Shown here piece after piece: positions 2,203 to 31,574 of a stretch of DNA of 33,248 nt. The stretch covers positions 1 through 33,248 of the forward strand of contig CALVZV010000012.1 in assembly GCA_944372665.1 (NCBI GenBank), given 5' to 3'. Both the position numbers and the translations under genes were made by a program. Position 1 is the stretch's first letter. The number at the start of each line of letters is the position of its first letter. Source of the DNA: an uncultured Clostridia bacterium. Its GTDB lineage: Bacteria; Bacillota; Clostridia; Christensenellales; DTU072. The notes under the pieces are model-generated. The model saw only the letters and a program-made list of their open reading frames with translations. It was not told the DNA's origin and made no database searches.

Positions 2203-2231
2203 TTTTCAAAATGCGGCGCACTTGATATAAT
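2203..2231 (+). promoter_or_regulatory. Predicted leaderless promoter of the sialidase-like gene
   Basis: TTTTCA (2203-2208), a 17-bp spacer and TATAAT (2226-2231) with an upstream TG (extended -10). Six bases separate the -10 box from the ATG at 2238, so transcription should begin on or next to the A of the start codon. No Shine-Dalgarno sequence precedes the gene. Three other genes in the window share this exact geometry. Confidence 0.65.
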
Positions 2232-2237
2232 CGAAAT

Positions 2238-3578
2238 ATGAAGAAAAAGAAAATCGTCGCCGCCGTCGTAGCGGCAGCAGTTATCGTCGTAATAACAGGC
2301 GCGGTGCTGACCGGCGTCTATTTCGGTACGCTTAAGGACGCGCTGGATTATGTGGACCTGCCTTTAGTCGCTCCCGAAGAAAACAGCTATACCGTCGTGG
2401 ACAAAACCGATTATTACCTCGGACATCCAGACCTGGTATATACGGGCGACGGCAGGCTGCTGACGGCGTATCCGCTGGGTCACGGCAAAGGCGCCATAGT
2501 CATACGCGAAAGTACGGATATGGGTAAAACCTGGAGCGAACGGCGTTCCGATCTGCCCGAAAGCTTCGCTGATTCTCAGGAAACTCCCACCCTTTACAGA
2601 CTGGATTTCAACGACGGTTCCGAAAAAATACTGCTGGTATCCGGCTGTCCGTCCTGGACGGATGACGACGAATACTACGCCGACGGCTTCAACTACTCGC
2701 TTTCTTCGGACGGCGGGCGCACTTTCGGCGAATTCATAAACGCCTACGGTGTCGAATGGGCGACGTCCATGCCGGACAGCGGCGACGATCTGTATACCTC
2801 ATACTCCGCCGACGAACTTCCCAATTTCGACGAATCGGGCAAGGTCCTGCCTTACGACGTCATCGTCGCCATGAGCTCGCTCACCAGACTCAAAAACGAA
2901 AACGGCGGCTGGCTGGACGCATGGATGGGCACTTTCCACGACTACGACTTTTATAATTACGTTTCGGTGCTGACTTTCGACAGCGAAGGCAAGGCGAATT
3001 GGTCGGTACCCAGGCGCTTTCTGTCCTCCCAGCGCGAAAAGGAAGCCGAAATAGATCTATGCGAAATAGAGATATTCAGAACGCCCTCCGACGAGCTGGT
3101 GCTGCTGGGACGCGCCAACGCCAGAAACTCCAATTCGGTGATTTCCGTCTCGGCTGACGAAGGGAAAAGCTGGAGCGTGCTTAAAGAACTGCCCTACGCA
3201 CTGACCGGCGACCGTCACAAAGCCGAATACGACCCCGTCACGGGCAAGGTCGCCGTGTCGTTCAGACTGTATCTGCCCGGGATTAAGCCCAACGCTCTTT
3301 CGCAGATGAACGAACTGGGCGGTTACTGGGTCTGCTGGGTCGGCACGCCGGACATGCTGACGGATTACGCGCTGAATCCCGAGAAAGATAAAAATACGGT
3401 TTTGGGTGACAAAATGTTGGTTTTGGGCAAAACAAACGACGGGAAAAGCGACTGCGGCTATTCCGGTCTGGTCATTGCGGAAAACCGGGTAGTCGCCGTT
3501 TCTTACGGCAAATTCAGCCGCGGCGCAAAAGTACCGTATATCCTGGGAGTCAGTTTTTCCGCAGACCTGCTGAAGTGA
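2238..3578 (+). CDS. Membrane-anchored sialidase-like (BNR/Asp-box) protein
   Basis: A 446-residue protein. A lysine-rich start and one hydrophobic helix (residues 6-29) suggest an uncleaved N-terminal membrane anchor with the rest outside the cell. Three Asp-box motifs (S-x-D-x-G-x-T/S-W/F) lie at about residues 92-99, 156-163 and 305-312, which marks a sialidase-type beta-propeller. The motif GHPDLVYTGDGRLL is like that of exo-alpha-sialidase-like glycosidases, but I do not see the FRIP motif or the arginine triad of GH33, so enzymatic sialidase activity is not established. It is transcribed alone, apparently as a leaderless mRNA, and meets the next gene stop to stop. It could be a glycan hydrolase of another specificity or a binding protein. 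Confidence 0.8.
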   Translation: MKKKKIVAAVVAAAVIVVITGAVLTGVYFGTLKDALDYVDLPLVAPEENSYTVVDKTDYYLGHPDLVYTGDGRLLTAYPLGHGKGAIVIRESTDMGKTWSERRSDLPESFADSQETPTLYRLDFNDGSEKILLVSGCPSWTDDDEYYADGFNYSLSSDGGRTFGEFINAYGVEWATSMPDSGDDLYTSYSADELPNFDESGKVLPYDVIVAMSSLTRLKNENGGWLDAWMGTFHDYDFYNYVSVLTFDSEGKANWSVPRRFLSSQREKEAEIDLCEIEIFRTPSDELVLLGRANARNSNSVISVSADEGKSWSVLKELPYALTGDRHKAEYDPVTGKVAVSFRLYLPGIKPNALSQMNELGGYWVCWVGTPDMLTDYALNPEKDKNTVLGDKMLVLGKTNDGKSDCGYSGLVIAENRVVAVSYGKFSRGAKVPYILGVSFSADLLK

Positions 3579-4376
3579 TCACCGCAGCCGAAGCAGACGT
3601 TTTGCGTTGAGATAAAAGATCTTGTCCAAGTCGCCCGAGGGGATATCCCAGCTGCCGAGGTTTTTTATTTCCGCGGCGGCGTCGCTCCACGGCGAATCGG
3701 TAGCGAACAGTATCTTATCCGCGCCGTGCCCTGCCAGTATCCTTTTGAAACGCTCTTTACCGTAATACTCCGTGCCCATGGAAGTGTCCAGGTATATGTT
3801 TTCCCCGACAAGTTTGTCCTCGACTTCCTCCCACTGCTGCTGTCCTCCCAGATGCGCCGCCACTATCGTGCCGCCGCGCATAGCGCGAACGACTTTTCTG
3901 AACATGGCGGGGTCGGATCTGAACGGCGCGGTGCCTATAGGATCGTAGCCCGCGTGAAAAACAATGACGAGTCCTTTGGAAAGCGCGTAATCGTACATAG
4001 GGAATAGTTTTTCGTCGCCGACGGTGAAATTCTGGTACTCCGGATGCAGCTTTATGCCTATATATCCCATTTCCGCCGCCGTGTCCACGTTTTGTTTCCA
4101 CGTTTCGGCGTCGGGGAAAAGCCCCGCGAAGGTCACTATCCTTTCGGAACGTATCTGCTTTCCCCATTCCATGTTCTTGACGCTGTGCGAGGGTTTGGTC
4201 GCCACGGGGAGCACCACCGAAACGTCCACGCCGGCGGCGTCCATGGCGTTTATCAGACCTTTAGCGGTCATGTCGTGGGCGGGATAATATTCGCCGTGGG
4301 CGTTCTTTTTTAAAGATTCTACGGCGTGCGCCGCTATCGAATCGGGAAAAATATGCGTGTGGAAATCTATTATCAT
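3579..4376 (-). CDS. Amidohydrolase-2 (TIM-barrel metal-dependent) family protein
   Basis: 265 residues with the metal-dependent hydrolase pattern in order: DFHTHIFPD at the start (HxH metal pair, H6 and H8), KLHPEYQNF in the middle, FHAGYDPIG and AAHLGG, then FATDSPW supplying the late catalytic aspartate. This is the PF04909 amidohydrolase fold, close to uncharacterised TatD-like or decarboxylase-type enzymes; the substrate is unknown. It is a single-gene unit with a promoter at 4393-4422 and a GAGGTAAGGT ribosome site just before ATG. Its TGA directly abuts the TGA of the convergent sialidase-like gene. Confidence 0.9.
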   Translation of the reverse strand: MIIDFHTHIFPDSIAAHAVESLKKNAHGEYYPAHDMTAKGLINAMDAAGVDVSVVLPVATKPSHSVKNMEWGKQIRSERIVTFAGLFPDAETWKQNVDTAAEMGYIGIKLHPEYQNFTVGDEKLFPMYDYALSKGLVIVFHAGYDPIGTAPFRSDPAMFRKVVRAMRGGTIVAAHLGGQQQWEEVEDKLVGENIYLDTSMGTEYYGKERFKRILAGHGADKILFATDSPWSDAAAEIKNLGSWDIPSGDLDKIFYLNAKRLLRLR

Positions 4377-4392
4377 ACCTTACCTCGCGCAT

Positions 4393-4422
4393 ATTATAAT
4401 ACTCGTATGAATACTATTGCAA
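4393..4422 (-). promoter_or_regulatory. Predicted promoter of the amidohydrolase gene
   Basis: Minus-strand TTGCAA (4417-4422), 18-bp spacer, TATAAT (4393-4398). The start of transcription near 4386 leaves a leader of about 10 nt that consists almost entirely of the ribosome site. Confidence 0.65.
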
Positions 4423-4432
4423 CCGATAAAAC

Positions 4433-5125
4433 TCAATGTTTCAGCATTTTCTCCGCCTCTTTCCAGTCGGGCATGTATTTTTGAATTTCGGCGTAAAATA
4501 CTTTGTCGTGGTTGCGGCGTTTAAGATGCGTCAATTCGTGGACAAGCAGGTAGTCGACGGCTTTTTCCGGCTTTTCGGCGGCTTTGTCGGAGATACGCAT
4601 CAATCCGGTTGCTATGTCCATTTTTCCCCAATAGCTTTTGACCGTCGTGATTATGTAACGCGAGGCTTTCAATCCCGTAACGCGCTCCCATACGGGCAGT
4701 CGTTTTTCGACGGTTTCCGCAAGCCGCGCCCTGAGCCATTTTTTCAAAAACGCCGCGGCCTCGGCGTCGGAGATATTGTCGGGACGGACGAACACCGCTT
4801 TGTCGGCTGATAAAGTTAGGCATACTCTGCTTCCCGATTCCGTCTGCAACGGATAGGTCTTGCCTTGAAATATAAACTCGCTGCCGCCATACATTATGCC
4901 CGCGGGCTTGACCGAAACGCGCCGTTTTTCGGCTTTCAGGAAAAAATCCAGCACCCGGGGCGAACCCAGAAAAATCAGAGCCGCGCCTTCGGTGACTCCG
5001 GCTCCGTAGCTTAAAAAATATTTGCCGTCGCGGTATCGGATTATCATCTTTGTCCGGCGCATATCCGCTCTACCGCGCACCGTGTATACCGTGCGTCCGA
5101 ACGATTTCATCTTTTCGGGCAGCAT
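4433..5125 (-). CDS. YgjP-like (DUF45/M48-type) zinc metallopeptidase
   Basis: 230 residues with the zinc-peptidase motif VHELTHLKRRNHDKVFY: H196, E197 and H200 form HExxH and H206 lies in the family's conserved R/P-N-H segment. The preceding SYWGKMDIATGLMRIS matches the family's SxWGS...G.I.LN strand. YgjP/DUF45 proteins resemble SprT and WssA-type minigluzincins; their substrates are mostly unknown. The frame stays open far upstream, but the ATG at 5125 follows AAGGAGG and overlaps the TGA of the MGMT-domain gene by one base (TGATG), indicating translational coupling. Last gene of the 7921-4433 unit. Cytoplasmic. Confidence 0.9.
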   Translation of the reverse strand: MLPEKMKSFGRTVYTVRGRADMRRTKMIIRYRDGKYFLSYGAGVTEGAALIFLGSPRVLDFFLKAEKRRVSVKPAGIMYGGSEFIFQGKTYPLQTESGSRVCLTLSADKAVFVRPDNISDAEAAAFLKKWLRARLAETVEKRLPVWERVTGLKASRYIITTVKSYWGKMDIATGLMRISDKAAEKPEKAVDYLLVHELTHLKRRNHDKVFYAEIQKYMPDWKEAEKMLKH

Positions 5126-5433
5126 CAAAGCCTCCTTACCGCATAGCGCTCCAGATCCACCGTATAGTCGTCGTGCACTTCCACGCCTTCGGATAACAGC
5201 AGTTTCTTCTGCGCGTCTATTCCGCCGAATGCAAACGCCGGCGCCAGTCTGCCGTTGCGGTTGACTACACGGTGACAGGGAATTATCCCGGGACGCGGAT
5301 TGAAGTGCAGCGCGTATCCCACGGCGCGCGACGCTTTGGGCGAGCCCAGCGACGCCGCTATCTGCCCGTAAGTGGCGACCTTGCCCTCGGGTATCCTGAC
5401 GACCGCTTCGTATACTCTGTCGTAAAAACTCAA
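5125..5433 (-). CDS. MGMT-domain DNA-binding protein, alkyltransferase-like size but with catalytic Cys
   Basis: A 102-residue stand-alone copy of the C-terminal domain of O6-alkylguanine-DNA alkyltransferase: helix-turn-helix region GKVATYGQIAASLG, arginine finger in SRAVGYAL, and active-site IPCHRVV with C53 present. True alkyltransferase-like (ATL) proteins of this size usually replace this cysteine, so this one may still accept alkyl groups, though it lacks the N-terminal domain. The start is TTG (5431-5433), preceded at good spacing by AAGGAGT; there is no nearby ATG. It lies 3 bp after the rlmA stop and is coupled to the peptidase gene by TGATG. DNA repair is inferred from family. Confidence 0.88.
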   Translation of the reverse strand: MSFYDRVYEAVVRIPEGKVATYGQIAASLGSPKASRAVGYALHFNPRPGIIPCHRVVNRNGRLAPAFAFGGIDAQKKLLLSEGVEVHDDYTVDLERYAVRRL

Positions 5434-5436
5434 TCT

Positions 5437-6243
5437 CTACTCCTTTATAAAAACGTCGACTCTGAATTCCGTCCGCGTTTCCAATTCCGGTTGCGCATAC
5501 AGCTTCTCCAGCCTGCAGGGCGCAGTCTTTACCGAATACGGGGTCATGCCCGCCAGATCTTTTATTTCCCCGCCGACGCAAACATATACGTCCTCGATAC
5601 GGAAAGTTCCTTCTCTGACGAAGCCTTCGGGCACGGACTCGTCCTCCGCATTCAGGCGTACCTCGTCGTACAGCGCGCTTTTAAACTCCAGCAAATGGTT
5701 TTTGCCGGGAGTGACGCGCACCAGTCTGCACCCTTTTGCCAGCACGCGCCGGGCTTCGGCGGCGAAAAGCGTGGTGAATACCGAAAACACCGCGGATACC
5801 GACGCGTCCGCAAAAGGCAGCGCGGCGCTGTTTGCGACGGCGAAAAGCACGTCCGGGTATTTTTTCGCCGCTTTCGAAACGGCATATTTGGACAAATCCG
5901 TGCCGACGACCGTCGCTGACGGAAAATATTCTTTCAGTTTTCCGGCGAACGAGCCGTCGCCGGTACCTGCGTCGACGATCAGATCCCCCTCGGAAAAAGC
6001 GAACGCGCGTCGCGTGAACGCATAAAGCGCGCGGTAATAGCCCTTTTCCATCACTCTCCCGCGCGCCGCGATAAGCTCCGCGCCGTCGCCCGAGTCTTTT
6101 TTGCCGCCGAGTACTAAATTGACGTAACCGTTCTTTGAAACGTCATAGCAATGCCCCTCGCTGCAGTACATCGAGTTCCCTCTCGGCTCCAGCCCGTTGC
6201 CGCACTTGGGGCAAATAAAGATTCCGCCGCTTCCGGAAAGCAT
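5437..6243 (-). CDS. rlmA: 23S rRNA (guanine-N1) methyltransferase RlmA
   Basis: 268 residues. The N-terminus holds a zinc site, C11-x2-C14-x12-C27-x3-H31 (CPKC, then CSEGH), followed by the linker NGYVNLVLGGKKDSGD typical of RlmA. A Rossmann methyltransferase follows with SAM motif VDAGTGDGSFAGKL and post-motif TDLSKYAVSKAAKKYP. RlmA enzymes methylate N1 of G745 (Gram-negative type) or G748 (Gram-positive type) in 23S rRNA; the latter can contribute to tylosin resistance in producer strains. The gene starts 4 bp after the SGNH hydrolase stop with only a weak GGTGAG site, so it is probably read from that gene's promoter. Confidence 0.92.
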   Translation of the reverse strand: MLSGSGGIFICPKCGNGLEPRGNSMYCSEGHCYDVSKNGYVNLVLGGKKDSGDGAELIAARGRVMEKGYYRALYAFTRRAFAFSEGDLIVDAGTGDGSFAGKLKEYFPSATVVGTDLSKYAVSKAAKKYPDVLFAVANSAALPFADASVSAVFSVFTTLFAAEARRVLAKGCRLVRVTPGKNHLLEFKSALYDEVRLNAEDESVPEGFVREGTFRIEDVYVCVGGEIKDLAGMTPYSVKTAPCRLEKLYAQPELETRTEFRVDVFIKE

Positions 6244-6247
6244 ACTC

Positions 6248-7921: not shown

Positions 7922-7945
7922 ATATCCCTCCTTGAATTACAAATA

Positions 7946-7974
7946 ATTTTAACACACGCTCAAAAATAAATCAA
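7946..7974 (-). promoter_or_regulatory. Predicted promoter of the SGNH-rlmA-MGMT-YgjP unit
   Basis: Minus-strand TTGATT (7969-7974), 17-bp spacer, extended -10 TGTTAAAAT with hexamer TAAAAT at 7946-7951. The 19 bp at 7941-7959 recur with one mismatch over the M28 peptidase promoter (11287-11305). Confidence 0.7.
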
Positions 7975-7991
7975 TATTCTTTTCCGTCCCG

Positions 7992-8020
7992 TTGACCCGA
8001 CGGAAAACGGAATGTATAAT
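7992..8020 (+). promoter_or_regulatory. Predicted leaderless promoter of the rlmI-like gene
   Basis: TTGACC (7992-7997), 17-bp spacer, TATAAT (8015-8020), then six bases and the ATG at 8027. The predicted start of transcription coincides with the start codon. No Shine-Dalgarno sequence is present. The promoter stands back to back with that of the SGNH gene. Confidence 0.75.
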
Positions 8021-8026
8021 CGGATT

Positions 8027-9211
8027 ATGACATATACCGTAACGTTAAAACGCGGCGAGGAACGCCGCATACTCGCCGGGCATTCCTGGGTCTACGCGAA
8101 CGAAGTTTCGAAAATCGAAGGCGACGGCGGTCTCGGCTCCCTAGCCACGGTTCTAAGCCATAGCGGCGCTTTCCTGGGCAAGGGATACATCAACCATTTG
8201 TCAAAAATTCTTGTCAGGATTTTTATCCGCGATCCTGAAGAACAGGATACCGAAGAACTGTTTACGGAACGCCTTTTTCGCGCAAACACATTAAGGCGCG
8301 ACCTCGGTTACGACAGCGCTTACAGAATTTGTTTTTCGGAATCGGACGGTTTGCCGTCGGTTATCGCGGACAAGTACGGAGACGTCATCGTCATCTCCGT
8401 ACTCTCTTTGGGATTCAGAAAAAAGCGCGACGCGATAGTAAAAGCCTTGGTCAAACTGTTTTCTCCCGCCGCGATATACGAGCGCAGCGACTCCCCCGTT
8501 CTGAAAAAGGAAGGCATCGAACCGTACTCGGGTTTGGTATACGGTACTCTTCCCGAAAAGACCGTCATAGAGGAAAACGGTCTTAAACTATACGTCGACG
8601 TCGTGAACGGACAAAAAACGGGCTACTACCTCGACCAGAAAGAAAACAGAGCGGCGGTGCGCCGCTATTGTGCGGGCAAGCGCGTGCTGGACTGTTTTTG
8701 CAACGTCGGCGGTTTTACTCTTAATGCCGCAACCGTAGCGAAAAGCGTAAAAGCGGTGGACATTTCCGAACGCGCGCTGGAGGAATTGAAAGCCAACGCC
8801 GAACTCAACTCTTTAAACAACGTTACCGCGGAGCGCGCGGACGTGTTCGAATACTTAAGAGAAGCAAAAAAGCGTAACGAAACGTATCAGACTGTCGTTT
8901 TGGATCCTCCGGCGTTTTGCAAAAGCGCTTCCGAGGTCGCGGGCGCGGTACGCGGTTACCGCGACATAAACGCCGCCGCCATAAAAATCATTGAGGACGG
9001 CGGTTACCTGGTTACCGCGTCGTGTTCGCACTACATGAGTACGGAGCTGTTCGAAAGAACGCTGAAAGAAGCGGGCGACAATGCCGGCAAACGCCTTAGA
9101 ATTTTGGAAAAACGCATGCAAGGCTCGGATCATCCCGCCCTGCTCGGCGCCCCTGAAACGGAATATCTGAAGCTTTTCGTATGTACCGTTTCGGACAAAC
9201 GCGGTATCTGA
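8027..9211 (+). CDS. rlmI: RlmI-type class I SAM-dependent 23S rRNA cytosine-C5 methyltransferase
   Basis: 394 residues. An N-terminal PUA-like domain (about 1-75, with HSWVYANEV and GKGYINHLSKI) precedes the RlmI/YccW signature NGQKTGYYLDQKENR (about 194-208), SAM motif LDCFCNVGGFTLNA (221-234), the catalytic-loop motif LDPPAF (292-297) and a second cysteine motif SCSH (332-335). E. coli RlmI makes m5C1962 in 23S rRNA; the same target is likely but not shown. An in-frame ATG exists at 8012 but lies inside the promoter upstream of the predicted transcription start, so the ATG at 8027 is chosen. Single-gene unit closed by the hairpin at 9231. Confidence 0.92.
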   Translation: MTYTVTLKRGEERRILAGHSWVYANEVSKIEGDGGLGSLATVLSHSGAFLGKGYINHLSKILVRIFIRDPEEQDTEELFTERLFRANTLRRDLGYDSAYRICFSESDGLPSVIADKYGDVIVISVLSLGFRKKRDAIVKALVKLFSPAAIYERSDSPVLKKEGIEPYSGLVYGTLPEKTVIEENGLKLYVDVVNGQKTGYYLDQKENRAAVRRYCAGKRVLDCFCNVGGFTLNAATVAKSVKAVDISERALEELKANAELNSLNNVTAERADVFEYLREAKKRNETYQTVVLDPPAFCKSASEVAGAVRGYRDINAAAIKIIEDGGYLVTASCSHYMSTELFERTLKEAGDNAGKRLRILEKRMQGSDHPALLGAPETEYLKLFVCTVSDKRGI

Positions 9212-9230
9212 TCGGCAGATTAAAAAAAAC

Positions 9231-9264: not shown

Positions 9265-9278
9265 CTACGAAATTCGGG

Positions 9279-9992
9279 CTAAGGGTGTTTATAGTACGTT
9301 TTATCGGTAACCTTCAGCTTCCCGAACCGTATAGCCCTGACGGGACAGGACTGGATACAGCGGTAACAGTCCTCGCATTCGCCTTTGAACGAGATCGCGC
9401 CGTTTTTGACTTCGATGTTTTGTACGGGACATTCGTTCACGCATTGCATACACATGACGCACTCCGTCCCGGCGCTTTTATAAGCGATCTTACCCGCCAC
9501 GCGTCTGAAAAGATACCACATCGCGCGCGTGCCGAATCCGAAAGGTTTCTTCGGCGCGACCGTTTTTTCGGCGTGCGCCTCCAGTTCCGAGGCGATTTTC
9601 GAGACCCTTTCCTCTTCCGAATCCAGGAGCTTACGCTTTTCCGCTTCGGGAGTCGGGAACATTATGCACGAATCGGGCATTTTAAGGCACGCCGCGTAAT
9701 CGAGCTTAAGCCCCTTTTCCCGCATCAGATACGCCGCGGAATTGAGCGATCTGCCCGCGGAGCCTCCCGCCGTAGCCACGGCGAAAACGTACTTTGCCGA
9801 AATCTTTGCGCGGCGCAGGCTACCGATAAGTCCCGCCGGCATGTCGCCGGAATACACGGGAAACACTATTCCCAGTCTTTCGTCCTCGATTTTAGCGAGA
9901 TCCTCGTTCCATTCGACGATCTTTTCGCCCTCGCGCCTTAATTTGAACGCCACCGAACGCGAATTGCCGGTACCCGAAAAATATACTATCAT
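9279..9992 (-). CDS. EFR1-family flavodoxin-like / 2x[4Fe-4S] ferredoxin protein
   Basis: 237 residues. The N-terminal flavodoxin-like part starts with FMN-loop motif YFSGTGNS (4-11) and has GIVFPVYSGDMP. The C-terminus carries two [4Fe-4S] motifs, CVMCMQCVNECP (Cys 178, 181, 184, 188) and CEDCYRCIQSCP (Cys 206, 209, 212, 216). This is the EFR1 architecture, a soluble low-potential electron carrier common in Clostridia; partner and reaction are unknown. It begins 3 bp after the M28 peptidase stop without a good ribosome site, so it is probably translated by coupling. A second EFR1 protein is at 16258-17109. Confidence 0.92.
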   Translation of the reverse strand: MIVYFSGTGNSRSVAFKLRREGEKIVEWNEDLAKIEDERLGIVFPVYSGDMPAGLIGSLRRAKISAKYVFAVATAGGSAGRSLNSAAYLMREKGLKLDYAACLKMPDSCIMFPTPEAEKRKLLDSEEERVSKIASELEAHAEKTVAPKKPFGFGTRAMWYLFRRVAGKIAYKSAGTECVMCMQCVNECPVQNIEVKNGAISFKGECEDCYRCIQSCPVRAIRFGKLKVTDKTYYKHP

Positions 9993-17875: not shown

Positions 17876-18937
17876 ATGAGCAAAGCACATCCGATGATAG
17901 AAATAAGGCGCCTGACGCGCACGATACGCAGGCTGAAAGATTCCTTGGATCCGGCATCGAGGCTGGACCGAGGCAAACGCGGAGAATTTTGCGCCGTCTA
18001 TGCGGCGCTTGAGGAGCTTCGCACCGAACTGTTGGAAAAAGACACTCTGCTTTTTTCGGCTGAGGAGCGTACCCAGCAGATGATCGCCTCCGTCACGCAC
18101 GACCTCAAAACCTACGTCGCGCTGATATCGGGGTATGCCGAATGCGTTCAGGACGGTATAGACGACAAAGACTATCCCGAGCTCATCCGCACCAAATGCG
18201 CGGAAATGAACGAGATGATCCTCAAAATCATTTCGAACGCGAGAAACATGAGCCGTGATCTGAAAAACAGGCTGCAGCTGGTCTCGCTGCGCGAATACCT
18301 GCCTCCCGTCATCAAACGCGCCGTTGCTCCGGCATGTGCAAAAGGGATACTGGTCAAAGTAAATCGGATACCCAATATCAGGATTGCTTTATCTTCCGAC
18401 GAGTTCGTCTCAGTCGTGGAGAATCTGCTGTCAAACGCCGCCAAGCACACTCCTTCGGGCGGCAAGATAAAGATTCGCTTTTACACTTCGTCGAAGTATT
18501 TTTTCATGAAGGTATCCGATACGGGTACCGGAGTCGCCGCCGAGGATGCGGATCACATTTTCGAAAGATACTATACCGCGGACAAGTCGCGCGCATTGGG
18601 TTCCGGCACCGGTATAGGACTTGCCGACGCCAAGGACGTGATGAAAGCGCACGGGGGCGACGTAGTCTACGTAAAGAGCAAAAAACCGGGCGCAGTATTT
18701 TTGTGCTATCTGCCGAAATACAGCAAGTTTAAGGATTCACTGACTCCGGATGAGCTCAAGCTCGTTTCAAACGTCTTCCACATCGTCGCGTTCCCGTTTG
18801 TGATCGTGTTCAGATTCTTCTATATTTTTTATCTTGCCGCCAAGATTGCCGCCGGCAACCGTGTCGTTTCCGCGTCCAAAGACAGAACCGGTGCGCCGAC
18901 AGGCGATTCCGATACGGAAAAAACTATTTCCGATTAA
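17876..18937 (+). CDS. Histidine kinase lacking N-terminal sensor, with C-terminal hydrophobic tail
   Basis: 353 residues. No signal peptide, transmembrane helix, HAMP or PAS precedes the kinase core; residues 1-65 are a charged, coiled-coil-like helix. The H-box is SVTHDLKTYVALISGY with H75; the usual proline after HDLKT is Tyr. The ATPase has N-box ENLLSNAAKH (N187), G1 VSDTGTGV (D215), F-box FERYY and G2 GTGIGL. After the catalytic domain, residues 298-327 are strongly hydrophobic and aromatic, then a hydrophilic tail, which suggests anchoring by the C-terminus. Paired with the upstream response regulator. Signal unknown; it may sense the membrane or need a partner sensor. Confidence 0.9.
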   Translation: MSKAHPMIEIRRLTRTIRRLKDSLDPASRLDRGKRGEFCAVYAALEELRTELLEKDTLLFSAEERTQQMIASVTHDLKTYVALISGYAECVQDGIDDKDYPELIRTKCAEMNEMILKIISNARNMSRDLKNRLQLVSLREYLPPVIKRAVAPACAKGILVKVNRIPNIRIALSSDEFVSVVENLLSNAAKHTPSGGKIKIRFYTSSKYFFMKVSDTGTGVAAEDADHIFERYYTADKSRALGSGTGIGLADAKDVMKAHGGDVVYVKSKKPGAVFLCYLPKYSKFKDSLTPDELKLVSNVFHIVAFPFVIVFRFFYIFYLAAKIAAGNRVVSASKDRTGAPTGDSDTEKTISD

Positions 18938-21317: not shown

Positions 21318-22451
21318 TGTGTTTGCGGGATGTCTTTTTTTGCGTCTTCCGGAACGTCTGCGAACAATTTTTATGGCTCCGCCGGAATGTTCGTCGCTCA
21401 CCACGGGATAATCGGCATTTGTAAGATTTTCTTCGGTTATTCCGAGCTTTTGCATAAAATCACCCAAAGAAACGACTTCAATGGCTTTCCCGCCGTCAAT
21501 GGCGCGCTTGATGTGCGGATACCTGGCGCAACGGTGGTCGGAAGCTACCACGTATATATCGGCAGCGGTGCCCATTCTAACGTAACTGCCGCCGTGTTTT
21601 ACCACTTCCCCCGCTATCAGCGCGACCTGCTTATAGTGGTTGAACTCGTAATACGAATCCAGCGTAACGCGCTTGCCTGCCATGTTCTGTTCCAGCTCCG
21701 GCGACGGACTCAGTCCCCTCAGATACCGCCAGAATTCACGCAGGTTGGTGTCGTTCATCTTCTCGGAACGCGCCGATGCGCGCATACGCTTTTCCAGCTT
21801 TTTGGCTTCCTTCACGTAATAAAGGCATCTGCCGTCGGCGGTCACTTCGCCTTTGCAGCGCGGCGCCTTCTCTATAAGCTCCGCAAGGGTGGCGTTCTCT
21901 TTCAGGCAAAGCGCTTTCGTCGCAAGCATGGATGCTTCGGCGTCGTCGTCGCTGCGGTGCATCACCAGTCCCGTCAGATCGATCCCCAAATCGCCGGCAA
22001 TATCGTTTAAAGAAACCTGATTGATTTTTCCGTGCGTTTCGCCGTACATTTCCTGAGCATCGAAAAACTTGTACGATATTATCGGGAGCGAGTATCTGGA
22101 ACACGCCTTGGTCAGAAACAGCGCGTCGTTATTGTGCGAAAAACCTATAACGGCGGTGTCGGGATCGAGTATCAGCGACTTGATTTTTAAATAGTGCGCC
22201 GGAAACTTGGGGCTTCTTTTAAATTCAAGTTTGGGATACCCCAATTCGATTCCGGAATCCTTTTCACGGTTTTTACCCCATGCGCCCGTATGGAATATCG
22301 CCTCCGGATTCATCAGGATATCCTCTTTCAAAAGGATGTTGAAATGCGCGTCGGTCAGCACGTAACCGAAGCTGCACATGTGAAAACCGTCGCTGCATTC
22401 TATATCGTAGAACAAATATTTTTCTGCGTCTGACATCGCGTTTACGGCCAT
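21300..22451 (-). CDS. DnaQ-like 3'-5' exonuclease with C-terminal BRCT domain
   Basis: 383 residues. DEDDh exonuclease motifs: YDIECSDG (D16, E18), GFSHNNDALFL (D109) and MHRSDDDAEA (H165, D170). A basic helical linker (about 208-245) leads to a BRCT-like domain (about 254-335: GKRVTLDSYYEF, VVKHGGSYVRM, ADIYVVASD, GKAIEVVSLGDFMQKL). The tail is very basic (RRRSGRRKKRHP), suited to nucleic-acid binding. The pairing recalls exonuclease-BRCT proteins of Bacillota with presumed DNA-repair or proofreading roles. The start codon overlaps the stop of the YbaK gene (TAATG), with GAGGG upstream. Last gene of the probable holA operon. Confidence 0.87.
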   Translation of the reverse strand: MAVNAMSDAEKYLFYDIECSDGFHMCSFGYVLTDAHFNILLKEDILMNPEAIFHTGAWGKNREKDSGIELGYPKLEFKRSPKFPAHYLKIKSLILDPDTAVIGFSHNNDALFLTKACSRYSLPIISYKFFDAQEMYGETHGKINQVSLNDIAGDLGIDLTGLVMHRSDDDAEASMLATKALCLKENATLAELIEKAPRCKGEVTADGRCLYYVKEAKKLEKRMRASARSEKMNDTNLREFWRYLRGLSPSPELEQNMAGKRVTLDSYYEFNHYKQVALIAGEVVKHGGSYVRMGTAADIYVVASDHRCARYPHIKRAIDGGKAIEVVSLGDFMQKLGITEENLTNADYPVVSDEHSGGAIKIVRRRSGRRKKRHPANTNAVQA

Positions 22452-22918
22452 TACTTTTCCCTCGTCACCGAAACCCAGCCGCTCGCTCCCGACAATACAT
22501 ATAGTTCGTCGGGGCTGAGTCTAATGCCGCTATGGTCGTTGCCTGCGGACGGATATACGGTATCGAAACGCTTCAGCGACGAGTCCGTATACACCCTTAT
22601 ACCGCCCTTTAACGCGAACGGGCACACTCCGCCCACGGCATAACCCGTTTTTTCAAGCGTTTCCTCGGCGGAAAGCATCCTGGCTTTTTCGCCGAACACG
22701 GCTTTGAAAGCGGCGTTGTCTATTCTGACGTCGCCCGCAGCCACGATTATTATGACTCCGCTTTTAAGGCTGAACGCCAGGCTTTTGGCTATCCTGGAAG
22801 GCTCCGTGCCCAATGCCCCGGCGGCAAGCTCCACGGTCGGAGTCGGTTGCTCAGGCTCTATTATGCGTTCCGCAAGACCCAATTTACGGAAATACTCGCG
22901 CACTTGCTCGATAGCCAT
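22451..22918 (-). CDS. YbaK/EbsC-family (aminoacyl-tRNA deacylase-like) protein
   Basis: 155 residues. Family features are the early lysine in IAKSLAFSL, the segment VRIDNAAFKAVFG and the YAVGGVCPFALK loop. YbaK-type proteins hydrolyse mischarged aminoacyl-tRNA (for example Cys-tRNAPro) in trans; this one resembles the free-standing YbaK/EbsC group, and specificity is not predictable. The ATG at 22918 was chosen because it lies one base after the aspartate kinase stop; an in-frame upstream start would run 54 bp into that gene. No ribosome site at useful distance, so coupling is likely on both sides. Confidence 0.9.
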   Translation of the reverse strand: MAIEQVREYFRKLGLAERIIEPEQPTPTVELAAGALGTEPSRIAKSLAFSLKSGVIIIVAAGDVRIDNAAFKAVFGEKARMLSAEETLEKTGYAVGGVCPFALKGGIRVYTDSSLKRFDTVYPSAGNDHSGIRLSPDELYVLSGASGWVSVTREK

Positions 22919-22919
22919 A

Positions 22920-24233
22920 TCAGTCGAAAAACGCTCCGTATATGGCTTTAAGCGCGGCGGCGTAATCCTCATCCTCCACGCCTACTATTATGTTGAGTTC
23001 GGAGCTTCCCTGGTCTATCATGCGGATATTGACGCCGGCGCGGTACAGCGCGTTGAATATCTTTGCCGCCGTTCCGGGCGTGTTAGCCATGCCGTGTCCG
23101 ACAACGGCTATCAGCGACATGCTGGAGGTGACCTCGATATGGTCGGGATTTACCATCAGGCGGATATCGTCTATCAGTTTGGCTTCGTTCACGCCCTTGG
23201 AGCCCGGATCGGAAATTATCACGCTCATCGTGTCTATGCCCGTTGGAACATGCTCGACCGACAGTCCGTACCTTTCCATGACGCTGAGCACTTTGCGGCA
23301 GAAGCCTATCTCGCCGTTCATCATCGCCTTTTTGATTGTGATGTTGGTGTTGCCCTTTCTGCCGGCTATGCCCGTAACCAGCGGACGCTCGTAGGCGGAA
23401 GTGTCTTTCAGAATAAACGTGCCTTTTTTTTCGGGGGCGAAAGTGTTGCGGATATTGATCGGGATACCGTCGCTCTGAACGGGGAAAACGGAATCGGGAT
23501 GCAGTACGCTCGCGCCCATATACGAAAGCTCTCTCAGCTCCTCGTAGCTGAGCACGTCTATCAGCTTGGGCTTGTCGACGATCCTGGGATCGGTTATCAT
23601 GAACCCGTCCACGTCCGTCCAGTTCTCGTACACGTCCGCGTTTACGCCGCGCGCTATGATGGCGCCCGTAAAATCGGAGCCGCCGCGAGTAAACGTCTTT
23701 ATCGACTTGTCGGGCATCCTGCCGTAAAATCCGGGGATCACCACACCCGACGCCGAACCGCGGCAGCGCTGTGCGACCAGATCGTTCGTCAGCACGGCGT
23801 CGAAAGTGCCGTCGCTTTTAAACTTGATGACGTCGGCGGCGTCGAGAAATTCGAATCCCAGCACTTTTGCGGTAAGCACGGCGCTTAAATATTCGCCTCT
23901 GCTGGCGGCATAGTCGGCGCTTGTGCCTGCTGCTATACCTGAGGCAATTTCCTCGAATTCTCTGTCCCAGTCGTGAGTTATTCCCAACTCCGACGAAAGG
24001 GTCTCGAACCTGTTCTTTATTTCTTTCAGCGTTTCGTCGGCGTTGCCCTTTTCTTTTTGCTCGGCATAAGCCGCATACAGCAGATCGGTGACCTTGGTGT
24101 CGCCCGAAAAACGCTTGCCGGGCGCAGAAACGACTATGTATTTTCTTTCGGGATCCGAAAGGATAATGTTTTTGACTGCGTTCACGCTGTTGACGGTAGC
24201 CATGGAGGTGCCGCCGAATTTACATACTTTCAT
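22920..24233 (-). CDS. lysC: Aspartate kinase
   Basis: 437 residues. Kinase domain: VCKFGGTSMA (residues 3-12), ASRGEYLSAVLTAKVL, FTRGGSDFTGAIIA and NWTDVDGFMITDPR. Two C-terminal ACT domains (from about 300) end with VVGHGMANTPGTAAKIF and the conserved IDQGSSELNIIVGV, so feedback control by lysine or threonine is expected. It makes 4-phospho-L-aspartate, the entry step to diaminopimelate, lysine, threonine and methionine. GAGGAG precedes ATG by five bases. No other aspartate-pathway gene is in the window; it sits within a mixed housekeeping operon. Confidence 0.95.
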   Translation of the reverse strand: MKVCKFGGTSMATVNSVNAVKNIILSDPERKYIVVSAPGKRFSGDTKVTDLLYAAYAEQKEKGNADETLKEIKNRFETLSSELGITHDWDREFEEIASGIAAGTSADYAASRGEYLSAVLTAKVLGFEFLDAADVIKFKSDGTFDAVLTNDLVAQRCRGSASGVVIPGFYGRMPDKSIKTFTRGGSDFTGAIIARGVNADVYENWTDVDGFMITDPRIVDKPKLIDVLSYEELRELSYMGASVLHPDSVFPVQSDGIPINIRNTFAPEKKGTFILKDTSAYERPLVTGIAGRKGNTNITIKKAMMNGEIGFCRKVLSVMERYGLSVEHVPTGIDTMSVIISDPGSKGVNEAKLIDDIRLMVNPDHIEVTSSMSLIAVVGHGMANTPGTAAKIFNALYRAGVNIRMIDQGSSELNIIVGVEDEDYAAALKAIYGAFFD

Positions 24234-25463: not shown

Positions 25464-25482
25464 AGTTATATCCTCCGTGGTT

Positions 25483-26289: not shown

Positions 26290-26301
26290 ATGACCTCCAG
26301 T

Positions 26302-27090: not shown

Positions 27091-27100
27091 TGTTACCTCG

Positions 27101-28117
27101 CTACATAGTCAGTATTTGAGCAAAAGCCGTACAAAACGCAGTTTCGTCCGAACATACGCCGCTGCGGTAATCGTATTCCGCCTTTACCAGCAAGTCCAGA
27201 ACGGCTTTCAGGTCGGCTTTCGAATACTTTTTGGCAGTCCTGCGGTTGACTTTTACGGCATATTCCCTGACTCCCATTTTTTCGGCAAGCTCCGCGTCGG
27301 AAAGCGGCGACAAAGCCGAATGCAGAAGCCTCCTGTATTGATTTATCAGCAACCAGAACAGCTGGGTGTATTCCATTCCTCCGGCTATAAATCTGTCCTT
27401 CAGCGCGCCGGCTTTCGGCTTGTCCTTGTCGGCAAGAGCGTTGGACAATTCGTATACGGCGTGCTCCATGTTGTCGCCGACCAGCGCTTCCACGTCTTCG
27501 CATTTTATTTCTCCGCCCTCATCGGCATAAGAGGCGAGTTTTTTGCCCTCCGAATATATGCCCATCGCGTTGCCGTCGGTGTACTGGATAAGCAGGTTGG
27601 CGGCGCGATAGTCTATGCGTGCAGGCATGACGCACTGCTTTACCAGCTTTTCCAGCGTCGCCTGACCGGGCTTGGAACAGTCTATGGCGACAAAGTTCTT
27701 CTTTACCGAAGCGGGTATGCCGCCCTCGCATATCAGCACTTTCACGTCGCCGCTTTCGCCCGTGATCGACGCCCACCTCTGCGCGTCCGCTTTGCCGCTC
27801 TCCTGCCTGGGCTCGCCGGAGGATTTGCTCTTTTTTTTGACCGGGGCGGGTATTATACCTCCCGCTACGACTCTTACGGGAACGTCGGGTATCGGCGAAA
27901 ACGCGCTGACGGCTTCGTACAGCATTTCCGCCGTCCATGCCGACGGCAGCCTTTTGAGATTGAAATCGCGCCATTCTTCCGGTACCGGTTCGACAAAAGC
28001 TTTTACGGCCTTTTCGCGCCAGTACACGTCGTCGCCGTCGAGATAATAAAATCTCGCTTCGGTGTCCTTAAATTCGGAAGCGTGCACCGCCGCGTTACCG
28101 AGTTTATTCTGAGCCAT
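27101..28117 (-). CDS. holA: DNA polymerase III delta subunit-like protein (HolA)
   Basis: 338 residues. The N-terminus RFYYLDGDDVYWREKAVKAF is the degenerate P-loop of clamp-loader delta (FLLYGxExYLxxe). Later segments fit HolA: VLICEGGIPASVKK, CVDxxKP-like AIDCSKPGQATLEKLVKQ, and the C-terminal helical collar LFWLLINQYRRLL...LAEKMGVREYAVKV with LVKAEYDYRSG. It opens the sliding clamp as part of the replicase. The frame is open further upstream, but the chosen ATG at 28117 lies six bases after a TATAAT box, so upstream starts would not be in the mRNA. It heads the probable seven-gene minus-strand operon down to 21300. Confidence 0.87.
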   Translation of the reverse strand: MAQNKLGNAAVHASEFKDTEARFYYLDGDDVYWREKAVKAFVEPVPEEWRDFNLKRLPSAWTAEMLYEAVSAFSPIPDVPVRVVAGGIIPAPVKKKSKSSGEPRQESGKADAQRWASITGESGDVKVLICEGGIPASVKKNFVAIDCSKPGQATLEKLVKQCVMPARIDYRAANLLIQYTDGNAMGIYSEGKKLASYADEGGEIKCEDVEALVGDNMEHAVYELSNALADKDKPKAGALKDRFIAGGMEYTQLFWLLINQYRRLLHSALSPLSDAELAEKMGVREYAVKVNRRTAKKYSKADLKAVLDLLVKAEYDYRSGVCSDETAFCTAFAQILTM

Positions 28118-28123
28118 AGCGGT

Positions 28124-28152
28124 ATTATACATCATCCAATAGTTATTTACAA
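28124..28152 (-). promoter_or_regulatory. Predicted leaderless promoter of the holA operon
   Basis: Minus-strand TTGTAA (28147-28152), 17-bp spacer, TATAAT (28124-28129) with upstream TG two bases off the ideal place, then six bases (ACCGCT) and the holA ATG. No Shine-Dalgarno sequence. Confidence 0.72.
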
Positions 28153-28167
28153 GTAATTTGAATTTTA

Positions 28168-29667
28168 TTATATAAACAGCAATAGCGCAAATGTAGCCAT
28201 GCATGCGGCAAAAACGCCGCCTTTTAATTTCTTACCGATCAGGTTTATTCCCGAAACAAACACCCAGCCGAAGTCCCATATCAGAGCCGCCGCGAACGGA
28301 ACGGACAGCGCCGCCGTTGCTCCGGGCAACGCGGCAACCGCCTCCGAGAACAATATAAATCCCTGAGTCAGGTAACCTATAGGTATCAAAAGGTATCCCG
28401 CATACGGAATAATCATGGCTATAAATGTTATCGGTGCCGCCAAGGAATATATAAGTGAAACCAGCGGCACCGCGATAATGTTCGCGGGCAGAAAATATAC
28501 GGCGAAGGTGCCGAATGCCGACGCGGTCAAACCGAACAGCAGCACGTTTGCGCCGACGCACACAGACGCCGCGTCAGCGACGGCGCGCATAAAAGCGTTT
28601 TTTTGCGGCAGCGCCCTTCTGATAGGATTTGCAAACAGTATTATCCCCGCCACCGCGGAGAAGCTCATGGCGAACCCCAGATCGAAAAGCGCCCAGGGCT
28701 GTATCAGCAAAATTACGATAGCCGACAGCGACAGCGCGTTGAGCGCGTCGAAGCGTCTGCCGCAGGCAAGCGAAAACAAAAAAACCAGCGCCGTTATCCC
28801 CGCTCTTACCACTCCGGGAGGGAACCCCGTCATCAATCCGTACACGGGGAGCATGACCGCTAAAAATCCCACGGCTTTTTTGGGCGGACGGCCGAACAGA
28901 CGGAAAAGCGCATAGACCATTCCGCACAAAAAACCTACGTGCAATCCCGAAACCGCCAGCACGTGACTAAGTCCCGCCGTGCGGATGGCGTCTTCTGTGC
29001 CACGCTCTATACCCGAATCGTCGCCGACCAGCAGCCCTTTCAGGACCGCGCCCGATTCGCCGCCTGCAAATTCGTACAGAGTTTTTTCGAGCTTTGCGTC
29101 CAGCCTTTCAAACAGCCCCGTTTTCTCCGTGCCGCTGACCGCCACGTAATCGCAGCGCGCCTCGTAACCTATGCCGTTACGGTAATACGACGCCGAATAC
29201 CAGTCGAAAGGATCGGGACTGACGTCGGCTATATCGGCTACGAATCCTACTCTTTCTCCCGTTACCAGTTCGGAGCGCGTTTCGAGATAAATTTTTTGTC
29301 CGACCTTCCCGCCGTTGATCGAAGCGTCTTTCAGAACATAGCGCGTGTATCCGTAGTATTCCGCGTCCGACTCCGCAACAGTGCCTTCGACGTATGCGAA
29401 GCCGCTGAAAGGCGCGGCTTGAGTGCATGAAAAGAAAATGCCGATCGCGGTGATCCCCGCAAAACAGAAACAAAACACCAATCGCGGGATGCGGTATTTT
29501 CCTATAATACACCACACCCCTGCCGCGGCGACGACACAAGCCAACGCGGGCGCCGCCCATTCTATTTCTTTCAAAGCCGCGCCGGCAATAATACCGACTG
29601 CCAGCGCCATGGCGGCAAACAGCGGAGGACGGTAATTGAGTATTTCCGTTTTATCGATGCCGCGCAC
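28168..29667 (-). CDS. comEC: ComEC/Rec2-family competence membrane protein lacking the C-terminal MBL domain
   Basis: 499 residues. It has an N-terminal DUF4131-like region (two helices, then an OB-like extracellular part about 90-200) and the Competence domain with SHVLAVSGLHVGF and FPPGVVRAGITALVFL, about ten helices in all. ComEC forms the channel for single-stranded DNA entry in transformation. Full-length versions are usually 700-800 residues because of a metallo-beta-lactamase domain, absent here; the protein ends after the last helix with a normal TAA. The start is GTG (29665-29667) after AAGGGGGG; no ATG fits. No other com gene is in the window. Confidence 0.9.
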   Translation of the reverse strand: MRGIDKTEILNYRPPLFAAMALAVGIIAGAALKEIEWAAPALACVVAAAGVWCIIGKYRIPRLVFCFCFAGITAIGIFFSCTQAAPFSGFAYVEGTVAESDAEYYGYTRYVLKDASINGGKVGQKIYLETRSELVTGERVGFVADIADVSPDPFDWYSASYYRNGIGYEARCDYVAVSGTEKTGLFERLDAKLEKTLYEFAGGESGAVLKGLLVGDDSGIERGTEDAIRTAGLSHVLAVSGLHVGFLCGMVYALFRLFGRPPKKAVGFLAVMLPVYGLMTGFPPGVVRAGITALVFLFSLACGRRFDALNALSLSAIVILLIQPWALFDLGFAMSFSAVAGIILFANPIRRALPQKNAFMRAVADAASVCVGANVLLFGLTASAFGTFAVYFLPANIIAVPLVSLIYSLAAPITFIAMIIPYAGYLLIPIGYLTQGFILFSEAVAALPGATAALSVPFAAALIWDFGWVFVSGINLIGKKLKGGVFAACMATFALLLFI

Positions 29668-29725
29668 TCTGCTATCCCCCCTTTTATAACGGTTTACGGT
29701 TACCGTACTTGCTGTTCAGGTTGCC

Positions 29726-30418
29726 TTATCTAGGTTTTAATATCTTCAGTTCCCGACTCCTCAAGGCATCCGCAAGCTCCGTCTCGTTCCCGATCTCCTT
29801 GTCGAGCATCACTCCCGCGCCGACGTCCTCGGGCTGGTGGAAATCGCTACCGCCCACCATTAGCAGGTCGTATTTTTTGCGGCGCGCCCTAGCCAGAAAA
29901 TTGCGGTTGGAATGTCTGGGATTGTTGTTGTATGTTTCCAGTCCGTCCAGATATCTTACGTCGATACGGCGCGTCCTTTCGCGGTACGGATGCGCCTGAA
30001 ACAGCAGCCAGCCGCGCTTTGCCGAAAACTCTTTTAATTCGGGATAGCCGAATTCTATCAAATCGAAAGCGTATTCTTTAAACTGCGCCGGGGTTATGCC
30101 GTAAACGAGTATTTCCGCAGCGCCGAAGTTAAACGGCGAATAATAGTCCTCCCTCAGCGCCAGTTCCATACCGAAAAACACGCGCATACTACCATCAGCC
30201 AGCTCTTTTACCCTTTCGTAGCCGCCGAGATACTTTTTTATTATCTCTCTGCGTTCGCCGCCGAAATATTTCCACGCTATTTTACGGTTCCAGTGATTGG
30301 TGACCGTCAGCGCGTCGTATCCGTTATCCCAATATATTCTGACGACGTCCTCGGGACTGACCTTGGCGCAGCTGCTGTTCAGCGCCGTATGCAGATGCGT
30401 TTCCACTTTATATTCCAT
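29726..30418 (-). CDS. PHP-domain metal-dependent phosphoesterase
   Basis: 230 residues. PHP motifs in order: ETHLHTALNSS (H8, H10), VTNHWN, a mid-protein FFGMELAL with E, LFQAHPYR and GGSDFHQPED, giving the full set of metal ligands. Free-standing PHP proteins hydrolyse phosphate esters (histidinol phosphate, oligonucleotides or 3',5'-nucleotide bisphosphates); this one resembles uncharacterised PHP hydrolases. It starts two bases after the stop of the 2H-HAD fusion gene and lacks a ribosome site, so it is probably coupled to it; three adjacent phosphoester-acting domains suggest related chemistry. Cytoplasmic. Confidence 0.9.
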   Translation of the reverse strand: MEYKVETHLHTALNSSCAKVSPEDVVRIYWDNGYDALTVTNHWNRKIAWKYFGGERREIIKKYLGGYERVKELADGSMRVFFGMELALREDYYSPFNFGAAEILVYGITPAQFKEYAFDLIEFGYPELKEFSAKRGWLLFQAHPYRERTRRIDVRYLDGLETYNNNPRHSNRNFLARARRKKYDLLMVGGSDFHQPEDVGAGVMLDKEIGNETELADALRSRELKILKPR

Positions 30419-30420
30419 AT

Positions 30421-31539
30421 TTATATCAGATCGAGTATATCCGTGGCGCTTGCCGCGGTATAGTCGGCGCCGGCTTCCCTGAGTTCCGCATAACCGCCGA
30501 ACCCGTATCCCACGCCCAGCGTTTTTACTCCGGCGGATATACCTCCTTCAATGTCGTAGACCCTGTCTCCTATCATCAGCACATCCTCGCCCGCGGCTTT
30601 GCCTATACGTTTCAAAGCCTGTTCGATAACGCTCTTTTTGTCCGCCTTGCGTTCGTCCGGCTGACCGCCGGACACGCACTCGAAATATTTTATCAATCCG
30701 AAATGCTCCAGCACCTCGCAGGCGGTCTTTTCAGGCTTTACCGTGGCTACGCCGAGGCGTATACCCTTTTCTTTCAGCGCCGCCAGCAGCTTTTCCACTC
30801 CCGGATAAACCTCGGCAACGTATTTGCCGCCCATTTCGTTGTAATTTCTGCGGTATTCCGCCAGCCCTCTGACGGCGGTGTCGTCGTCAAGTCCCATATA
30901 CGTTTTGAACGACCATACCAGCGGCGGTCCGAGAAACTTGTTTAAGATCTCCGGATCGTAACCGTATATGCCTAGTTTGTCCAGAGCGTATTTCAAAGAC
31001 CTTTTTATGCCCGGCGCGGAATCGGTGAGCGTGCCGTCCAGATCGAACAGCATGCAGCCGAAACGCCTTTCGGGTTTTAAAAACGTGCTTGACAGCGGCG
31101 TATATTCCCTTTTGCCGTTTATGTTCTCGGAAGCGAACAGCGTTAACGCGCACAGCCTTATCTGTATTTGTTCCGGCTCCGAAACGAAGTCGTCCTTGCG
31201 CGAAACAGTTATGTGCGGCAGCAGTTTCCGTTCGTCATCAAATTCCGCCGCAAGACAGAATTTCCTCTTGATTTCGGCGATTGCGCCGCCGTCTTCAATA
31301 ATGAGAGCGCGCGCGTTGCCGAAAGTGCGTCTGCCCCCGACCCATGCGCGTATCTCGGCGCCGTTTACAGACCTTACCGCTGCTTTTAAGCGTTCCGCGT
31401 CGTCGGTTTCCCCGAAAAACGACAGCGTCAGATGCAGATCGTAAGCGGGTATAACGCGACCGATCCCAGCCTTTAAAGCGAGGTCGTACAGCGCCTGCCG
31501 CGATTTATGATCCGGTTCCAAAGCCGCAAAGATTCTCAC
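30421..31539 (-). CDS. Fusion of 2H RNA 2',3'-cyclic phosphodiesterase (ThpR/LigT) and HAD phosphatase
   Basis: 372 residues from GTG at 31539. Numbering from the ATG two codons earlier: the 2H part (1-160) has both signature motifs, HLTLSF (H38, T40) and HITVSR (H111, T113), with the ThpR start VRIFAALEP. The HAD part (162-374) has LFDLDGTLTDS (D168, D170), VATVKPE (T268), a lysine near 303 and MIGDRVYDIEGG (D327, D331), close to phosphoglycolate phosphatase-like Gph. The reading frame is continuous, so the fusion is real in this sequence. The GTG is preferred because the promoter's -10 box directly abuts the ATG, which would therefore not be transcribed. PHP gene follows at 2 bp. Confidence 0.88.
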   Translation of the reverse strand: MRIFAALEPDHKSRQALYDLALKAGIGRVIPAYDLHLTLSFFGETDDAERLKAAVRSVNGAEIRAWVGGRRTFGNARALIIEDGGAIAEIKRKFCLAAEFDDERKLLPHITVSRKDDFVSEPEQIQIRLCALTLFASENINGKREYTPLSSTFLKPERRFGCMLFDLDGTLTDSAPGIKRSLKYALDKLGIYGYDPEILNKFLGPPLVWSFKTYMGLDDDTAVRGLAEYRRNYNEMGGKYVAEVYPGVEKLLAALKEKGIRLGVATVKPEKTACEVLEHFGLIKYFECVSGGQPDERKADKKSVIEQALKRIGKAAGEDVLMIGDRVYDIEGGISAGVKTLGVGYGFGGYAELREAGADYTAASATDILDLI

Positions 31540-31545
31540 CAGCAT

Positions 31546-31574
31546 ATTTTACCACATTCGTCCACGTATTGCAA
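31546..31574 (-). promoter_or_regulatory. Predicted leaderless promoter of the 2H-HAD fusion gene
   Basis: Minus-strand TTGCAA (31569-31574), 17-bp spacer, extended -10 TGGTAAAAT (hexamer 31546-31551). Six bases lie between the hexamer and the GTG at 31539. The ATG at 31545 touches the -10 box. Confidence 0.7.

Follow-up and report, generated by a model that had tools for sequence, protein, structure and literature searches.

A 33,248-bp stretch of DNA from an uncultured Clostridia bacterium (positions 1-33,248 of contig CALVZV010000012.1; hereafter the window) raises the question of whether some bacterial genes in it are transcribed from their very start codons. The initial annotation had pointed out that four of its genes, namely, a sialidase-like gene, an rlmI-like RNA methyltransferase gene, holA, and a gene for a fusion of a LigT/2H phosphoesterase with a HAD hydrolase (2H-HAD), share a -10 box that is followed by exactly six bases and the start codon. 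We analyzed the window together with the rest of this metagenome-assembled genome (MAG; 1.64 Mb on 89 contigs) and with related genomes, and, judging from sequence comparison, the mRNAs of the four genes very probably begin at the start codon, being leaderless and devoid of a Shine-Dalgarno (SD) sequence. Transcription that starts exactly at the start codon would produce an mRNA without a leader and without an SD sequence, and an mRNA with such a 5' end would be translated by the leaderless route, in which a 5'-terminal AUG or GUG is directly recognized by the ribosome carrying the initiator tRNA.

Geometry of the four promoters

Reading the four sites directly, we found the claimed layout of -10 box, six bases and start codon base for base in all of them (Table 1); we denote a spacing of six bases between the -10 box and the start codon N6, one of seven N7, and so on. 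The -35-like hexamer that had been placed 17 bp from each -10 box is present as well, since 17 bp gives the best match among spacers of 15-19 bp at all four sites, and no SD word of at least 4 bases precedes any of the four starts, in line with the claimed absence of SD sequences. The companion claim that the other promoter-proximal genes mostly have strong SD sequences holds in sense: 18 of the 28 other called genes in the window have an SD of at least 5 bases at their near starts, 4 have one of 4 bases and 6 have none, a count that pools promoter-proximal and operon-internal genes. No 16S gene, which we sought for its anti-SD sequence, was found in the MAG.

Excess of the six-base spacing in the genome

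A comparison with controls, as the initial annotation had proposed, revealed an excess of N6 both in the whole genome, where the pattern was counted, and in a 402-kb gene-called sample of it, where upstream regions were shuffled. TATAATN6ATG occurs 39 times in the whole genome, versus 11 times for the reversed pattern and 13 times at N9, two controls that differ from N6 in composition. The other 30 spacings within 0-30 have a mean of 15.5 TATAAT-ATG pairs per spacing (total over 0-30, 503), which gives a Poisson P of 4e-7 for N6.

The sample consisted of 20 stretches plus the window, in which 345 genes were called (343 or 340 usable); since our hexamer gene caller is home-made, we treated starts as sets of near starts. 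A -10 box with at least 5/6 matches lies at N6 in 18 of 340 genes, versus a mean of 3.26 and a maximum of 8 in dinucleotide-shuffled upstream regions, with none of 200 shuffles reaching 18. In the spacing spectrum, six is the sole clear peak (18), the other spacings having a mean of 5.75 and a maximum of 10. With 18 genes seen and 3.3-5.8 expected, about 12-15 of the 340 genes, or some 4%, stand above the background. Samples of two further genomes gave similar contrasts, with N6 counts of 13 versus 3.4 in shuffled regions (G004) and 9 versus 1.7 (G038), neither count being reached in any of 200 shuffles. Two genomes from other families of the order had N6 counts of 0 versus 0.7 in shuffled regions (G067, family f4) and of 4 (G034, family f2; background 7.9, maximum 14), the latter with no clear peak at the sample size.

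Conservation of the layout among orthologues

The gene holA is present in 50 of 58 genomes, its own included; the genomes compared in this work, like the loci drawn from them, are kin to each other, and the counts are thus not independent. We fetched 30 holA loci of the family, 28 of which had a usable start, and found a -10 box with at least 5/6 matches at N6 in 21 of them (own included), at N7 in five and at neither spacing in two. All 21 N6 loci have a -35 TTG at 17 bp. The six bases between -10 box and start codon are diverse (12 distinct sequences among 15 loci); A is the base at -1 in one of the N6 loci, and GTG is the start codon in one. Furthermore, the length of the N-terminus of holA differs between orthologues, while the distance from promoter to ATG is constant, and since such co-movement is otherwise hard to explain, the promoter and the start codon appear to be coupled. 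We also took a second holA set, in which 18 loci belong to other families and two to the same family; in one of these 20, of family f6 (L117), TAAAAT stands at N7, as judged by eye. A scan of genome contigs with holA alone confirmed no relative.

For rlmI, 28 loci were usable, the window's own among them, and a -10 box with at least 5/6 matches stands at N6 in seven, all of which belong to the 11 loci of the genus (L051-L061). The layout TA[AG]AAT-N6-[AG]TG is found in five of the six full-length 2H-HAD loci (L081-L085), the start codon being GTG in two of these five and ATG in the other three, whereas the sixth (L086), together with two loci in which 2H is a separate gene (L088 and L089), has by eye a weaker TAATAT at N6. 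The sialidase-like gene was found in 10 of the 58 genomes, and in one relative in the genus (G001) the TATAAT-N6-ATG layout is retained, the six bases themselves being different; in addition, a distant sialidase-like gene of family f6 (L279) has TATTAT-N6-ATG. With a single genus relative, conservation for the sialidase-like gene is thin. Since relatives keep the same spacing, the leaderless layout is likely to have been inherited and not to have arisen by coincidence.

The domain arrangement of 2H-HAD varies among the genomes. 2H (LigT) and HAD are fused in G000 (the genome of the window), G001, G005, G006 and G007, and in G003, G009 and G010 each has its own gene, the two genes lying side by side, while the full-length match in G012 contains an internal stop.

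Signature of probable transcription initiation at the start codon

Transcription starts of the sigma-A type have a pyrimidine at -1 and a purine at +1. We collected, from six genomes, the ATG sites with a -10 box of at least 5/6 matches at N6 and a -35 hexamer of at least 3/6 matches, sites with a weaker -35 having been removed before the count. A pyrimidine stands at -1 in 47 of these 48 sites, compared with 834 of 1587 (53%) other near-start ATGs, and a spacer of 17 bp gives the best -35 match in 35 of them, compared with about a quarter at other starts. The two sampled genomes from families without an N6 excess had 2/2 (G034) and 0/0 (G067) such pyrimidines. In the window, the base at -1 is T in three of the four sites. 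The claim that the mRNA starts at the start codon is therefore supported, as far as sequence can indicate, by the -35 spacing of 17 bp, by the -1 pyrimidine, and by the co-movement of promoter and start codon in orthologues.

Two states of rlmI

The orthologues of rlmI would alternate between a leaderless state and a leadered, SD-bearing one. A scan of genome contigs with the rlmI alignment gave the set of named rlmI loci (the best 80 of 572 relatives, 79 of them usable), in which the -10 box is at N6 in 16 and at N7 in two, with none at N8 to N15. By state, 16 of the 79 are leaderless at N6, 39 have an SD word of at least 4 bases and 24 have neither. Several of the SD-less, non-N6 loci have a weaker TAnnnT at N6 (TANNNT in 24 loci versus at least 5/6 matches in 16). 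A looser start rule likewise gave 16 at N6, with scattered others, some of them at N8-N15.

Under a looser state rule (N6 or N7, at least 4/6 matches in the -10 box and 3/6 in the -35) applied to 107 loci, 35 are leaderless, 55 are SD-led, 17 are neither, and none is both; this exclusion is partly geometric, because the two motifs compete for the same bases. On a quick tree with long branches flagged, the state changes at least 13 times, six of the changes being forced by well-supported branches, while shuffled state labels require a mean of 28 changes and in 0 of 500 shuffles as few as 13. The rlmI state is therefore inherited, yet it has changed over and over again, and the presence of both states among close relatives provides a natural experiment on moves between initiation modes.

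In three loci of close relatives within the genus (L055-L057, the rlmI genes of G003, G010 and G009, respectively), TATAAT lies about 28-32 bases upstream and an SD-like sequence precedes the ATG. Set beside the predicted leaderless rlmI genes, they lend themselves directly to a comparison of the two modes.

Alternative explanations and points against the leaderless reading

The alternative that survives best, though we regard it as quite improbable, is that the promoters are real but translation of the four genes proceeds mainly on longer mRNAs, produced from an upstream promoter or by read-through, the leaderless start being a minor transcription start site (TSS). The position of holA, 50 bp behind a gene on the same strand, would suit this explanation; however, rlmI and the sialidase-like gene are each preceded by a gene on the opposite strand, and as all four genes are without an SD, a longer mRNA would also be without an ordinary ribosome site. 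The absence of rlmI orthologues that combine the leaderless layout with an SD argues in the same direction, within the limit set by the competition of the motifs for the same bases. To the possibility that the true start codons lie farther downstream, such that short leaders would begin at these ATGs, we assign scarcely any probability: the start codons are predicted only, but the alignment of rlmI homologues extends to their first residues, the holA promoter moves with the ATG as the length of the N-terminus changes, and the near starts of the four genes have no SD. Just as slight is the case for chance, namely, TATAAT-like words that happen to lie six bases from starts in AT-rich upstream DNA, because, even though such words do occur as background, at 15.5 per spacing genome-wide, and families f4, f2, f9, f13, f16 and f33 of the order have no excess, the N6 excess over shuffles and other spacings, the conservation across divergent orthologues and the -1 pyrimidine in 47/48 sites refute it as a general explanation, leaving single sites, such as that at 4395-4409, that may have arisen by chance.

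The preferred reading, that the four mRNAs begin at the start codon, has to be set against several observations that weigh against it. First, the base at -1 of 2H-HAD is G, and its start codon is GTG, with an ATG in the same frame two codons farther upstream. Second, the layout of the sialidase-like gene is kept within the genus only in G001; three loci with the -10 box farther upstream (L276-L278) and, by eye, three others (L273-L275) look leadered. Third, holA is at N6 in none of the 13 usable loci of its second set. Finally, N6 counts are small in the samples of three genomes: 5 in the 180-kb sample of G001 (background mean 2.6, maximum 6), where there is no clear peak, and 5 in G049 (background 2.0, maximum 6) and 4 in G047 (background 2.3, maximum 6), neither having a clear peak at the sample size.

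dnaA and other genes with the layout

As judged by eye, the -10 box of dnaA in 30 loci of the family (L282-L311) is at N6 in nine, N7 in eight, N8 in four, N9 in eight and N11 in one, and none of the 30 has an SD word of at least 4 bases. The dnaA gene of the genome itself (G000:C29:4495-5865) has its -10 box at N9. The leader of dnaA in the family is thus predicted to be about 0-3 bases long. Because the dnaA spacings range over N6-N9, the constraint would be a leader of about 0-3 bases, with six being the mode and not the rule. The claim of exactly six bases therefore stands for the four window sites but is too narrow for the leaderless class as a whole, in which N7 (5/28 holA loci) and N6-N9 (29/30 dnaA loci) occur. 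Among 20 dnaA loci, one from each of 20 other families, the -10 box is at N6 in f14 and f20, at N7 in f3 and f8, and at N8-N9 in f6; dnaA is SD-led in other families, for example, f9, f24 and f13, and also in the N6-rich f17.

In the six genomes, 46 sampled genes have the layout, 39 of which were scanned against Pfam. They include genes for Lon, an NFACT (RqcH-type) protein, NAD kinase, biotin ligase, Asp23, EamA transporters, UvrC, MurB (with GTG), a DinB-type polymerase and, in G001, DnaA.

Taxonomic reach of the excess

In 200 genomes of the order, N6 was counted 6567 times versus 4046 for N9 (ratio 1.62), and N6 exceeds N9 in 164 of them. The excess is strong in families f32, f3, f17, f15, f6, f1, f28, f14 and f19; in the same count there is none in f4, f13, f16, f33, f2, f9 and f26, and no clear one in f24, f31 and f21. 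Named relatives include Candidatus Borkfalkia (Christensenellales in NCBI) and Candidatus Coproplasma (Eubacteriales incertae sedis in NCBI).

For comparison with the class, we drew 109 genomes, five of which fell in the order, and kept the 104 from other orders. These have 6015 N6 versus 5581 N9 counts (ratio 1.08, P 3e-5); 66 of these genomes have more N6 than N9, and three of the 104 (G320, G305 and G277) are enriched in N6 as much as genomes of the order. Per genome, N6 exceeds N9 by 12.6 in the order and by 4.2 outside it, AT-rich genomes diluting the N6/N9 ratio. The small but non-zero excess in other orders, far weaker than that in the order of the window, agrees with the statement of the initial annotation that the layout is not a standard theme in Clostridia, as do the clostridial TSS maps, which list few leaderless mRNAs: about 2-3% in one (PMC9045289), 4% potentially leaderless with the ribosome-binding site (RBS) generally kept in another (PMC5171806), and 15 genes in a third (PMC7438776).

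Relation to known leaderless genes

According to Zheng et al. 2011 (PMC3160421), leaderless signals occur in 56 of 209 Firmicutes genomes (4.2%), mainly in Lactobacillales and Mycoplasma, and leaderless genes carry a TANNNT whose first T is about 12 bp upstream of the start, without an SD. All four window sites have these same features, the TANNNT at about 12 bp and no SD, and the full TATAAT box, as seen here, is described there for genomes of medium GC content. The lineage differs, the Firmicutes carriers reported there being Lactobacillales and Mycoplasma whereas ours is an order of gut Clostridia. Actinobacteria and Deinococcus-Thermus have the same layout, with a usage of 19.2% and 39.4%, respectively (PMC3160421), versus about 4% here; a genome with about 4% falls short of the share of about a fifth of genes or more that defines high leaderless usage.

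The share of about 4% is similarly small to that of leaderless transcripts in the clostridial TSS maps. In C. phytofermentans, leaderless genes are reported to be generally provided with an RBS and another TSS, whereas the genes described here have no SD and their layout is conserved in orthologues. Replication genes are also among the leaderless mRNAs of Caulobacter, namely, dnaX and dnaQ, but the dnaA mRNA of that bacterium carries 150-155 nt of leader (PMC4117421), in contrast to the 0-3 nt or so predicted here. Our literature searches, whose coverage of subscription papers was poor, returned nothing relevant that links "leaderless" with Christensenell or Borkfalkia, and only Caulobacter for "leaderless" with "dnaA mRNA". 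Leaderless genes are thus already a known kind, in Firmicutes as well, and a share of about 4% is ordinary; what appears to be new is the lineage, the conservation at the level of orthologues and the predicted near-leaderless dnaA.

Conservation among orthologues, the excess at the level of the order and the putative near-leaderless dnaA lift the finding above the routine. Leaderless expression would be an inherited, gene-specific trait in a large and mostly uncultured group of gut Clostridia in which initiation has been assumed to be SD-led. Gene callers should be aware that SD sequences alone cannot choose the start sites in these MAGs. A near-leaderless dnaA across the family would be of interest for replication control. 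It is possible, though we consider it unlikely, that this order keeps a leaderless sub-proteome including replication genes (within the family, most sampled members would have a leaderless holA, and nearly all are predicted to have an SD-less dnaA leader of 0-3 bases) as a selected means of tying replication to a state of translation that favors leaderless mRNAs, and not as a relic or through drift.

Features of the window

Table 1. Promoter elements and genes of the four predicted leaderless loci in the window
Feature	Position	Strand	Remarks
-35-like TTTTCA, sialidase-like gene	2203..2208	+	4/6 match to TTGACA, 17 bp spacer
-10 box TATAAT, sialidase-like gene	2226..2231	+	N6 (cgaaat) before ATG 2238; layout kept in G001, different N6
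Sialidase-like (BNR repeat) gene, predicted leaderless	2238..3578	+	Pfam BNR_2 2.6e-8; no SD
-35-like TTGACC, rlmI-like gene	7992..7997	+	5/6 match to TTGACA, 17 bp spacer
-10 box TATAAT, rlmI-like gene	8015..8020	+	N6 (cggatt) before ATG 8027; N6 in 7/11 genus loci
rlmI-like RNA methyltransferase gene, predicted leaderless	8027..9211	+	Pfam PUA_3, Methyltrans_SAM; start fixed by homologues
-35-like TTGTAA, holA	28147..28152	-	4/6 match to TTGACA; TTG at 17 bp in 21/21 N6 loci
-10 box TATAAT, holA	28124..28129	-	N6 (accgct) before ATG 28117; inside 50 bp gap to upstream gene
holA (DNA polymerase III delta subunit), predicted leaderless	27101..28117	-	Pfam DNA_pol3_delta_C 4.4e-15
-35-like TTGCAA, 2H-HAD gene	31569..31574	-	4/6 match to TTGACA, 17 bp spacer
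-10 box TAAAAT, 2H-HAD gene	31546..31551	-	N6 (atgctg) before GTG 31539; layout kept in 5/6 full-length loci
LigT/2H phosphoesterase - HAD hydrolase fusion gene, predicted leaderless, GTG start	30421..31539	-	Pfam LigT_PEase, HAD_2

Four sites in 33 kb, where the rest of the sample would lead one to expect about 1.3, is an unremarkable density once selection is taken into account, and it gives no reason to call the sites clustered. A fifth TATAATN6ATG in the window (4395-4409, + strand) was considered as a leaderless micro open reading frame and rejected; the frame has 25 codons, as translated by eye, and is antisense to the end of the gene at 4433-5581, and the match is probably due to chance. 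Six other genes of the window (1008-2042, 9279-9992, 17876-18937, 22451-22972, 28168-29667 and 29726-30418) have no SD word of at least 4 bases at their near starts and are absent from the list of -10 boxes at N5-N8; some of them may be translationally coupled.

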